The translations under genes were made by a program, and so were the position numbers. A stretch of DNA of 35,328 nt from contig JAHJVW010000066.1 in NCBI GenBank assembly GCA_018828585.1, positions 1-35,328 of the forward strand. The letters are read 5' to 3'. The notes under the pieces were generated by a model that was not told the origin of the DNA, made no database searches, and worked only from the letters and a program-made list of their open reading frames with translations. This document shows positions 14,364 through 17,313 of the stretch, one piece after another. The DNA comes from Bacteroidota bacterium (GTDB lineage: Bacteria; Bacteroidota; Bacteroidia; Sphingobacteriales; Sphingobacteriaceae). How positions within the stretch are numbered: the stretch's first letter is position 1; each line of letters begins with the position of its first letter.

Positions 14364-14786
14364 TTAAAAACCCAAACTCCTTTTCTCTAGATAAGATTGT
14401 AAAATAATCACTGCTGAAACGGTATCCACCAAATCTTTTTTATGTCGATCTGATTTTTTGAGACCACTTTGAGCAATAGTTGCTGATGCCATTTTTGAAG
14501 TGAATCGCTCATCTATCATCTCCACAGGAATCGCTGGGAAGTGCTTTTTTAGCATCGTAACAAAACCTTTTACCTGTGGTGCAGATTGCGATGCCAAACC
14601 ATTCATTTGTTTAGGTTCACCCACGATAAAAAGCGCAACTTGTTCTGTCATTAAGTATTTAGTTAAAAATTCGATACAATCTTTTGGATGAATGGTGGTT
14701 AAGCCAGTCGCAAACATTTGCAAAGGATCGGTTACGGCAATCCCTAAGCGTTTGGTTCCAAAATCAAAAGACATTAATCGAGGCAT
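14364..14786 (-). CDS. ruvX: RuvX/YqgF-type Holliday junction resolvase
   Basis: This 140-residue protein has the RNase H-like fold of the YqgF family, which takes part in 16S rRNA 5' processing and, in some bacteria, Holliday junction cleavage. Visible motifs are FDFGTKRLGIAVTD (D8), IVGEPKQMNG (E57), DERFTS (92-97) and HKKDLVDTVSAVIIL (D121), which supply the acidic metal-binding residues. It is first in a two-gene unit with recQ, pairing a possible junction nuclease with a helicase that processes such structures. A TAGCTTTG box at 14830-14837 on the minus strand may be its promoter. Confidence 0.92.
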   Translation of the reverse strand: MPRLMSFDFGTKRLGIAVTDPLQMFATGLTTIHPKDCIEFLTKYLMTEQVALFIVGEPKQMNGLASQSAPQVKGFVTMLKKHFPAIPVEMIDERFTSKMASATIAQSGLKKSDRHKKDLVDTVSAVIILQSYLEKRSLGF

Positions 14787-14840: not shown

Positions 14841-14881
14841 AATTATGAGGAGGGATTTGAAGTTGTTGAAAAGCAATCGAC

Positions 14882-15586
14882 TTATAAATCAAAATCAATA
14901 ATAACCGGAACATGATCACTTAAAGAACACCATTTTGAATGTAATCCAATTTCGACAGTTTTCAATTTTCTGATAAAATCTGAAGAAGCAAAGCAATAAT
15001 CGATATGATAAGGCTTATTCTCATGTCGGTACATGAAAAGAGTTGAATTAATTTCTTTGCCATGTTCCTGTTTATTGAAAACATGATAAACACTTTTAAT
15101 TCCTTTTAATTTAAGTTTTGAAACCACGTCAGAATGATTTCCGATTCTTTTAGGTTTATCCCAGATGGTGTTACTATTAAAATCACCAATCAATAGGGTG
15201 CTTTGCTCATTTATCAGCTCTTCATAAAAATGAATGGCTTTCCAAACCTGAGTAACGTATTGTCCATCCTTATCTTTTGGGTTGTTAGCCCAAATCGCAA
15301 ATAGAATAAATTCCTCATTTTCTCTGAAAACTCTTAAAGGGATAACATTCTTAAAATTCAAGTTATGATTATCCAATACCTCGAATTGATATTCACTAAA
15401 CGAAAAAACACCCACACCTTTATTTGGGTTTTCTCCATACCAGAATGAGGAAGTAGGTTTGGTATCGAATTTTAGTTTCTCGAGATTTTCACATTCTTGG
15501 ATAATTAAAATATCTGGACTCAATTCTAAAATAGAATCAGCTTTCTTTCGAAAAGCCATATTACAGTTCCAAGTAATGATTCTCAT
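14882..15586 (-). CDS. Endonuclease/exonuclease/phosphatase family protein
   Basis: The 234-residue protein has the complete catalytic set of the exonuclease III/DNase I-like superfamily: TWNCN (5-9), QECE with the metal-binding E31, GDFNSN (134-139), HIDYCF (194-199) and SDH (223-225). Members cleave phosphodiester bonds in DNA, RNA or lipid head groups. This one lacks the signal peptide of secreted forms and is probably cytoplasmic. It lies 11 bases after the end of the toxin pseudogene on the same strand, so it may once have been transcribed from the toxin-antitoxin promoter. Which substrate it uses cannot be told from the sequence. Confidence 0.85.
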   Translation of the reverse strand: MRIITWNCNMAFRKKADSILELSPDILIIQECENLEKLKFDTKPTSSFWYGENPNKGVGVFSFSEYQFEVLDNHNLNFKNVIPLRVFRENEEFILFAIWANNPKDKDGQYVTQVWKAIHFYEELINEQSTLLIGDFNSNTIWDKPKRIGNHSDVVSKLKLKGIKSVYHVFNKQEHGKEINSTLFMYRHENKPYHIDYCFASSDFIRKLKTVEIGLHSKWCSLSDHVPVIIDFDL

Positions 15587-15597
15587 ATCTTAGTTTG

Positions 15598-15879
15598 TTA
15601 AACCTCTTGTCTATTATCCCAAAGAAATAAGATCACGATGTTATCATCATTTATTTGATAATAAAAAGAACAGTTTTTATTGATTAAACCAATTCTGATG
15701 CTTTCGCTGAGTGAGGAAGATTTGAAAATATAAGGTTGCTGGGCAACAGTTTCAAAAGTTTGATAAGCTGAATCGAGAAACTTATTAGCTTTGTTTTCAC
15801 CTCATTTATTTTCAATGAAAGCGGATACAGCCACTAACATATCAGAAGCTTCATCAGTAAACAAAACTTCTAAACTTAT
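15598..15879 (-). pseudogene. RelE/ParE-type toxin, inactivated by start loss and an internal stop
   Basis: A 93-codon reading frame directly follows the antitoxin. It reads (I)SLEVLFTDEASDMLVAVS, then AFIENK, stop, GENKANKFLDSAY and on to DDNIVILFLWDNRQEV. This matches the compact RelE/ParE-like toxin pattern, including the hydrophobic final strand before the terminal charged residues. Two lesions are visible. The codon where an ATGA start/stop overlap with the antitoxin would lie (15879-15877) is ATA. Codon 26 (15804-15802) is TGA where relatives usually have tryptophan in a KWGE-like motif. No in-frame ATG follows the stop, so no active toxin is expected. Sequencing error could explain one lesion but hardly both. 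Confidence 0.8.
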
Positions 15880-16085
15880 TTATTAGAGAGTAGTCGTTTC
15901 ACTTCCTCAAAAGTTTTTGTTCTTCCCGCTTTAACATCTTCCAAACCTCTTTGAATTCCAGCTAAAACAAAATCACTTAACTCTTCATTTGGCTGAGTTT
16001 TAAACTGAACTTTTAAAGCTTTCAAAACTGCTTTTACAGTTTCTGCTTGTTCGGCATTTTCTGGATGTATTAAAATGGCTTCCAT
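15876..16085 (-). CDS. DUF2683-like antitoxin, partner of the dead toxin
   Basis: This is a 69-residue protein, MEAILIHPENAEQAETVKAVLKALKVQF then a charged helical tail (GLEDVKAGRTKTFEEVKRLLSNK). The opening is typical of short Bacteroidota antitoxins (DUF2683-like) found directly upstream of RelE/ParE toxins. Its stop codon TAA overlaps the first two codons of the toxin frame. The N-terminal part probably forms the DNA-binding dimer and the C-terminal helix would embrace the toxin; that is family knowledge, not seen. It is intact and has a good promoter box, so it may still be expressed although the toxin is not. It is divergent from holB, with 79 bases between the start codons. Confidence 0.75.
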   Translation of the reverse strand: MEAILIHPENAEQAETVKAVLKALKVQFKTQPNEELSDFVLAGIQRGLEDVKAGRTKTFEEVKRLLSNK

Positions 16086-16090
16086 ATTAT

Positions 16091-16098
16091 CAAATATA
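16091..16098 (-). promoter_or_regulatory. Candidate -7 box of the antitoxin gene
   Basis: On the minus strand TATATTTG matches TAnnTTTG exactly and ends 5 bases before the ATG at 16085, implying a leaderless or near-leaderless transcript. Confidence 0.5.
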
Positions 16099-16151
16099 CA
16101 AAACCAAATATCAAATCTCTACACTCATAACCCAAATCTCAATACTTCTTT

Positions 16152-16159
16152 TTATTTTG
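16152..16159 (+). promoter_or_regulatory. Candidate -7 box of holB, supports its start
   Basis: TTATTTTG resembles TAnnTTTG with one base less between TA and TTTG, and ends 5 bases before the ATG at 16165. It supports that start over an in-frame ATG at 16075, which lies inside the antitoxin gene. Confidence 0.4.
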
Positions 16160-16164
16160 CAGCG

Positions 16165-17313
16165 ATGCAGTTTAAAGATATTGTCGGTCAGGAAGCGGTT
16201 AAAAATCACCTAATTCAAACCGTTAAGGATGAAAGAATTAGTCATGCTCAGCTATTTTTGGGCCCCGAAGGTTCTGGAAGTTTGGCGCTGGCTTTAGCTT
16301 ATGCACAATTCATCAGCTGCGAAAATAAATTAGAAAACGATTCTTGTGGCGAGTGTTCCTCTTGTCGTAAATACAATAAACTGGTTCACCCTGATTTACA
16401 TTTTTCTTATCCATTTTTTGCAAAACACAAAGAAGATACTGCAACAACATTTATTGAAGAATGGCGGAAAGCTTTTTTGGCAAATCCTTATTTAGGTTTG
16501 GACGAATGGCGTGACCAATTGAGTGCCGATAACAAACAAGCCAACATCAACATCGCAGAGGCACACAGCATTATTCAAAAACTTAGCTTAAAACCTTTTG
16601 AGTCAGAATATAAAGTGTTGATTTTATGGTTGCCCGAATATTTGGAAAAAGAGGGAAATGCGCTATTAAAAGTGATTGAGGAACCATCGCAAAAGACCTT
16701 GTTTTTGTTGGTGGCACAAAGTCAGGAACAGATTTTAAATACCATCATTTCTAGAACACAAATTGTTAAAATTCCAAAATTAAAAGCGGAAGATATTGAA
16801 CGATTTTTAATTAAGGATAAAGGTTTAGATACGACTTCTGCTGCCCAGTTGGCATATTTGAGTAATGGAAATTTACAAATCGCTCAGCATTTATTAATCC
16901 ATAAGGAAAACGATTATCACGAACTTTTAAGAACATGGCTTGGTGCCAGCTGGAAAAATAATGGATTAAAATTTGTAGAATTGAGTGAAGGAGAGCTAGC
17001 TAAAATGGGCCGAGAAAATCAAAAAAATTTCTTACGTTATGGCATCAATTTGATGCGTGAATGCATGCTTTTTTTGGCCGAAACTCCTGGATTAATTCAT
17101 TTGCCCGAAAAAGAGTTAGAATTTATTAGTAAATTTTCCCAAATTTTAAATCTAGCCAAAGCCGAAGCAATTGCTGAAGAATTGGAAAAGGCGCATTATC
17201 ACATTGAGCGGAATGCGAATCCGAAAATATTATTTTTAGATGTATCTTTGAAACTAGTTAAGATTTTAAAGTTTAATACGCTCCCGAAAGGGACTCACGA
17301 TATATTGTTATAA
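16165..17313 (+). CDS. holB: DNA polymerase III subunit delta' (HolB-type)
   Basis: Delta' is part of the clamp loader that places the sliding clamp on primed DNA. The 382-residue product starts MQFKDIVGQEAVKNHLIQTV, has a degenerate P-loop GPEGSGSLAL (33-42) in which the catalytic lysine is missing, and a four-cysteine zinc module (C52, C61, C64, C67). It also has the SRTQ motif in the place of the family's SRC arginine-finger motif. Loss of the P-loop lysine is expected for delta', which does not hydrolyse ATP. The start at 16165 gives the standard N-terminus; an upstream ATG at 16075 would add 30 atypical residues. It is the first gene of the holB-ricT-gldH operon, with 3 bases before the next gene. 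Confidence 0.93.
   Translation: MQFKDIVGQEAVKNHLIQTVKDERISHAQLFLGPEGSGSLALALAYAQFISCENKLENDSCGECSSCRKYNKLVHPDLHFSYPFFAKHKEDTATTFIEEWRKAFLANPYLGLDEWRDQLSADNKQANINIAEAHSIIQKLSLKPFESEYKVLILWLPEYLEKEGNALLKVIEEPSQKTLFLLVAQSQEQILNTIISRTQIVKIPKLKAEDIERFLIKDKGLDTTSAAQLAYLSNGNLQIAQHLLIHKENDYHELLRTWLGASWKNNGLKFVELSEGELAKMGRENQKNFLRYGINLMRECMLFLAETPGLIHLPEKELEFISKFSQILNLAKAEAIAEELEKAHYHIERNANPKILFLDVSLKLVKILKFNTLPKGTHDILL

Follow-up and report, generated by a model that had tools for sequence, protein, structure and literature searches.

Probable toxin-first decay of a chromosomal DUF2683 antitoxin and ParE/RelE-type toxin pair between holB and ruvX in a Sphingobacteriaceae bacterium

The decay of chromosomal toxin-antitoxin pairs of Escherichia coli by nonsense mutation and deletion is described in passages of two reviews (PMC7167474, PMC2654758), in which ccdO157 (Mine et al. 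2009) is presented as a decaying chromosomal type II module. For Klebsiella pneumoniae, orphan antitoxins are reported to be abundant, and the authors suggest, in the relevant part of their article, that these belong to degrading pairs or act in anti-addiction (PMC7192599). The locus described here shares with ccdO157 a conserved chromosomal location and, as far as the review passages go, loss by nonsense mutations and deletion. It differs from ccdO157 in its toxin and antitoxin families and in that the comparison is made between different species and not between strains of one. With the Klebsiella orphans it shares an antitoxin without a working toxin, a state that in part of those cases is also found in the context of a valid pair; however, that study, in the part cited, is a population survey by domain search (PMC7192599), whereas here each lesion is assigned to a single base by comparison with an intact copy from the same chromosomal position. 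A more remote likeness is to the ParE toxins of solved structure (8c24, 3kxe, and 5cw7), whose chains are matched by a profile of 12 relatives of the toxin (best match 8c24, E of 0.00018); at the present locus the toxin is paired with an antitoxin of the DUF2683 family, for which a full-text literature search found one passing mention.

The locus lies in the window, i.e., the whole stretch of 35,328 nucleotides that was analyzed. It was compared mainly with three relatives: G005, the closest, whose holB protein is 98% identical over 380 codons; G014, a metagenome-assembled genome (MAG) of a congener (Sphingobacteriales bacterium JN15.004); and G007, Pedobacter cryophilus. The RuvX tree is (G007,(G014,(G000,G005))), where G000 is the genome of the window. 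The features of the locus are as follows.

15876..16085, minus strand: intact antitoxin gene, 69 aa, DUF2683 (PF10884) by Pfam; 93% identity to G014, dN/dS 0.13
15598..15879, minus strand: inactivated ParE/RelE-type toxin frame, 93 codons plus stop; ParE_toxin (PF05016) when read through; 79% identity to G014
15876..15879, minus strand: lesion 1, ATAA in the overlap against ATGA in G014; toxin start gone, antitoxin stop preserved
15802..15804, minus strand: lesion 2, toxin codon 26 is TGA against TGG in G014
16091..16098, minus strand: promoter-like box TATATTTG 5' of the antitoxin; identical letters in G014, TAAATTTG in G007
16165..17313, plus strand: DNA polymerase III delta-prime-like gene, called holB; top NCBIfam match holB at 157.4 bits, under the cut-off of 180.6
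14364..14786, minus strand: ruvX; NCBIfam RuvX at 84.6 bits, cut-off 43.25
14882..15586, minus strand: ORF of the endonuclease/exonuclease/phosphatase family, between toxin and ruvX; Pfam PF03372 at 31.9 bits, cut-off 24.5
14877..16113 (approximate), no strand: stretch missing in G005, in which the sequences upstream of ruvX and of holB adjoin

The pair has the layout of a type II module, with a small antitoxin gene placed 5' of the toxin and a four-base overlap between them that reads ATGA in G014 and ATAA at the same place in the window (minus strand, 15879-15876). This overlap is, to the base, what the first-pass annotation had described: the antitoxin stop is kept as TAA, and codon 1 of the toxin becomes ATA. 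All toxin codons except codon 26 are open to the stop at 15598, and the remainder of the frame is therefore preserved, as had been stated. Compared with G014, where both positions are intact, each change replaces G by A on the coding strand, and the earlier reading of two separate inactivating events is thereby supported. With ATA in the place of the start codon and TGA at codon 26, the window holds no expressible toxin ORF. Restart inside the toxin was ruled out, since the sole in-frame ATG, GTG, or TTG 3' of codon 26 in the codon table is a GTG at codon 82, which leaves no useful restart.

The promoter-like box upstream of the antitoxin, a putative Bacteroidetes -7 box, begins at -13 in the window and at -12 in G014, and its counterpart in G007 begins at -22. 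On the far side of the box, the mechanical ORF call for holB begins 30 codons upstream, across the antitoxin start (16075-16164); the start used here is the ATG at 16165, which matches the ORF of G005. The PF03372 ORF has no counterpart at this position in G014 or G005.

The identification of the locus as a toxin-antitoxin pair stands. The antitoxin is a 69-aa open frame that scores 45.1 bits against DUF2683 (cut-off 27), and it is intact, as the annotation had it. The toxin frame, read through and entered with an initial M and an X in place of the stop, scores 27.2 bits against ParE_toxin (cut-off 23), close to the 29.4 bits of the G014 toxin. These matches above the cut-offs indicate that the toxin frame is more than a chance ORF. 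The part of the window toxin 3' of codon 26 taken alone scores 18.1 bits, which is under the cut-off, and the interrupted frame was not among the four matches returned by a ParE_toxin family search of the genome. Those four are other, distant members of the family, and the best other match to the window toxin within the genome has 20% identity (E of 0.076). The antitoxin is thus an orphan: it is intact, with no working toxin adjoining and no close toxin elsewhere in the genome. Among NCBIfam models it finds only weak RelB/ParD-type matches, the best at 17.9 bits against a cut-off of 70.

In G014 an intact pair, with the ATGA overlap and TGG at codon 26, occupies the same chromosomal place between holB and ruvX; its antitoxin is 93% and its toxin 79% identical to those of the window. 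The alignment of the read-through toxin with its homologues, which the first-pass annotation had proposed as a check, comprised 25 homologues from 29 loci (L004-L032), the partial matches L020, L024, L025, and L031 being left out. Column 1 is M in 18 of the 25 and V in 4. At column 26, 13 homologues have W and 12 have F, so that tryptophan, claimed to be usual there, is so in the three nearest relatives, whereas over the whole set Phe is as common. All ten toxin columns that are invariant after column 1 (alignment A1) are retained in the window. By eye, the C-termini of the window and G014 toxins are both unlike the usual ending, as if there were a junction at that point. Stops at the same Trp column occur elsewhere too, as TGA in L106 (G020, Parapedobacter soli) and as TAG in L190 (G303).

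These observations very probably reflect the ordinary toxin-first decay of a chromosomal type II module, made up of a DUF2683 antitoxin and a ParE/RelE-type toxin, between holB and ruvX. The pair was most likely inherited from the ancestor of the four-species clade, with a toxin that was presumably active and a module that would have worked until recently. In the lineage of the window, the start codon of the toxin would then have been lost and its codon 26 turned into a stop, in either order. Either lesion alone should abolish the toxin protein, and once one was fixed the other would be free to drift in. That the antitoxin is still intact would be expected if it could not safely be lost before the toxin. 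The surviving antitoxin should still be made and may bind its own promoter, with no partner and probably no present job, and the likely next step would be loss of the whole locus, as in G005.

The toxin frame bears the mark of past purifying selection. Between the window and G014, dN/dS (NG86) is 0.12 for the toxin, taken over codons 2-91 without codon 26, while the antitoxin has 0.13, holB 0.06, and ruvX 0.10; with YN00, the values are 0.10 for the toxin, 0.07 for holB, and 0.08 for ruvX. Such a low ratio for the toxin against the G014 copy indicates that its loss is recent and, together with the intact copy at the same place, upholds the earlier view of a recent decay. By arithmetic from the ratio of 0.12, with sampling error ignored, the window lineage could have been neutral for at most about a quarter of the time since the split, if prior selection on the toxin was total. 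The toxins differ at 21 amino acids. The change looks to have occurred on the window side at 12 of these, the two lesions included, and on the G014 side at 7, with 2 unassignable, which shows no clear excess of change in the window. The low ratio would fit equally well a toxin that is somehow still made; the lost start and the early stop argue against this, and it is unlikely.

Synonymous change follows a different pattern, as it affects 8 of 64 same-residue codons in the antitoxin against 178 of 533 in the toxin, holB, and ruvX together (Fisher p of 0.0005). The antitoxin thus has about a third of the synonymous change of its neighbors. In the comparison of window positions 15878-16177 with the G014 locus (L004), the antitoxin and the stretch upstream of it (approximately 15880-16180) are 90-95% identical, and the toxin and most of holB are lower. 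The low synonymous change in the antitoxin could be due to a recombination tract or to constraint at the DNA level.

Other stages of decay are found in relatives. G005 lacks the whole locus, the antitoxin included. In P. cryophilus (G007), the antitoxin is present with an ATGA overlap, and the likeness of the toxin ends after about 22-25 codons. This antitoxin is 43% identical overall and scores 14.8 bits against DUF2683, under the cut-off of 27, and its orthology therefore rests on position and on the C-terminal half. Where the remainder of the P. cryophilus toxin should be, there is an opposite-strand immunity gene of the Imm11 family (L042, 736-1383). A profile of the window antitoxin, run against the genome collection, gave five named loci, of which one (G014) has an intact toxin and four have broken ones: Parapedobacter soli has a TGA at the same Trp, P. 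cryophilus has the truncation, and two Mucilaginibacter MAGs have frameshifts, as judged by eye from three-frame translations.

The family was surveyed from both sides of the pair. Starting from the toxin, an internal stop was seen by eye in 18 of the 150 rows among the matches listed, window included. These 18, with 5 of the 6 loci of a second list (G003:C3 was left out), gave 23 loci with stops, of which L120 and L121 proved intact on inspection and were dropped, leaving 21 stopped toxin frames. An antitoxin-size ORF, defined as at least 45 codons with its end at most 60 bases from the toxin start, accompanies 19 of these 21 (window included), and 2 of the 19 are visibly shortened. It also accompanies all 28 loci without toxin stops, and an intact toxin without such a neighbor was not seen among the toxin-led loci examined. 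As a count of intact toxins, 28 of 28 was rejected as too lenient, given that at least two of these toxins are frameshifted (L020 and L024) and L025 lacks the C-terminal motif (L020 is the same place as L058, and L025 as L211). That count was superseded by an antitoxin-led survey in which one full toxin frame was required.

In the antitoxin-led survey, which is blind to loci whose antitoxin is gone, a six-row antitoxin profile found matches in 138 of 301 family genomes. No stop was present inside the antitoxin match among the 50 best-scoring matches. A full toxin ORF follows the antitoxin in 28 of these best 50 (16 of 30 in the first batch and 12 of 20 in the second, where one lacks the C-terminal motif), and no intact toxin is present in the other 22. 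Five of the profile seeds are within the best 50 (G000, G014, G110, G020, and G007), the sixth (L057) being outside; without the seeds, 19 of 45 antitoxin loci have no intact toxin. At 7 of the 22 (L177, L181, L184, L194, L198, L205, and L212), tblastn found no recognizable toxin, although a toxin of a different kind may be present at some of them. The antitoxin-size ORF kept beside 19 of 21 stopped toxins and the 22 of the best 50 antitoxin loci without an intact toxin point to the same order of loss in the relatives as in the window. Two species (loci L107 of G071 and L108 of G108) share the same internal toxin stop and an identical antitoxin-like ORF upstream, which is either an old shared null allele or a transferred broken pair.

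The main alternative is that the antitoxin has been selectively kept after the loss of the toxin because it represses by itself or protects against related toxins (anti-addiction), roles that the first-pass annotation had suggested, and we consider it improbable. The frame is open and constrained, its synonymous divergence is unusually low (8/64 against 178/533 codons), P. cryophilus has the antitoxin adjoining a cut toxin, no intact toxin is found at 22 of the best 50 antitoxin loci of the family, and a review passage tells of a chromosomal ccd pair that acts in anti-addiction (PMC2654758). However, the constraint is older than the recent loss of the toxin, and it is for that reason uninformative about the antitoxin after the loss. 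The closest relative, G005, lacks the antitoxin too. Nor was a related toxin found from which protection would be needed in plasmids, phages, or viral contigs: the G014 toxin had no match at E of 0.001 in 72,556 plasmid records or in 50,697 phage records, and a pattern search of viral contigs, which sees close relatives only, gave 14 matches that encode no relative of the toxin. Each of these collections may be thin for these bacteria, which makes the negative result a weak one.

Extended to the family, the same idea would be that antitoxins of the DUF2683 group are repeatedly freed and kept awhile as useful alone, as repressor or protection, with nearly half of such loci in the family antitoxin-only at any moment; this we likewise regard as improbable. 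In the genus of Parapedobacter soli, a group of alike loci was compared across six species: the toxin is intact in two and damaged in four, each time by a different lesion. The antitoxins have dN/dS of 0.035-0.20 in the 11 of 15 pairs for which it was computable. The toxin remains are, by eye, mostly alike, from which the losses look young. They are thus read as separate young losses and not as one old orphan lineage, and this favors turnover over long-kept orphans.

It is less probable still that one or both lesions are errors of sequencing or assembly in an intact pair. The genome is a single assembly in 153 contigs, but two independent errors in one 93-codon gene would be needed. Among 77 aligned sister ORFs, the other internal stops in this genome are confined to a second toxin and to a small ORF with 5 stops, one of which faces a gap, and interrupted toxins of the same kind occur in many other assemblies.

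This second ParE-type toxin (L092, C153:11281-11589) is open except for codon 87, a TGA in the place of a conserved Trp that is encoded by TGG in G005 and G014. It is preceded by an intact antitoxin-size ORF of 78 aa that matched no Pfam antitoxin family. Because of this toxin, and because TGA is the stop of none of the 23 clear genes in the window, we tested whether TGA is read as tryptophan in this organism, in which case codon 26 would be no stop and the antitoxin stop would have changed from TGA to TAA for that reason. Even with two toxins that carry TGA at a conserved Trp, there is practically no chance of this, since 28 of the 271 ORFs with 150 aa or more (10%) terminate in TGA over 386 kb of the 3.58-Mb genome, window included, the next stop lies a median of 4 codons past the TGA ends, no stop falls in the 319 Trp columns of the 77 sister ORFs outside the two toxins (3 rows), RF2 is present (479 bits), and the toxin start codon is lost regardless. 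Recoding of TGA to Trp was accordingly rejected on the stop counts, the Trp columns, and RF2, and the genome uses the standard genetic code within the 386 kb sampled. In the relatives, TGA ends 25 of 174 such ORFs in G014 and 5 of 45 in G005.

Toxin-first decay as found at this locus is a new, well-resolved instance of a known process. The pair has been caught soon after the loss of its toxin, with every lesion resolved to the base, and in related species the same chromosomal position shows it intact, cut, or deleted. Together with the survey of the family, in which 22 of the best 50 antitoxin loci have no intact toxin, it provides a natural series in which to ask whether orphan antitoxins are merely slow to vanish or are kept for a reason.
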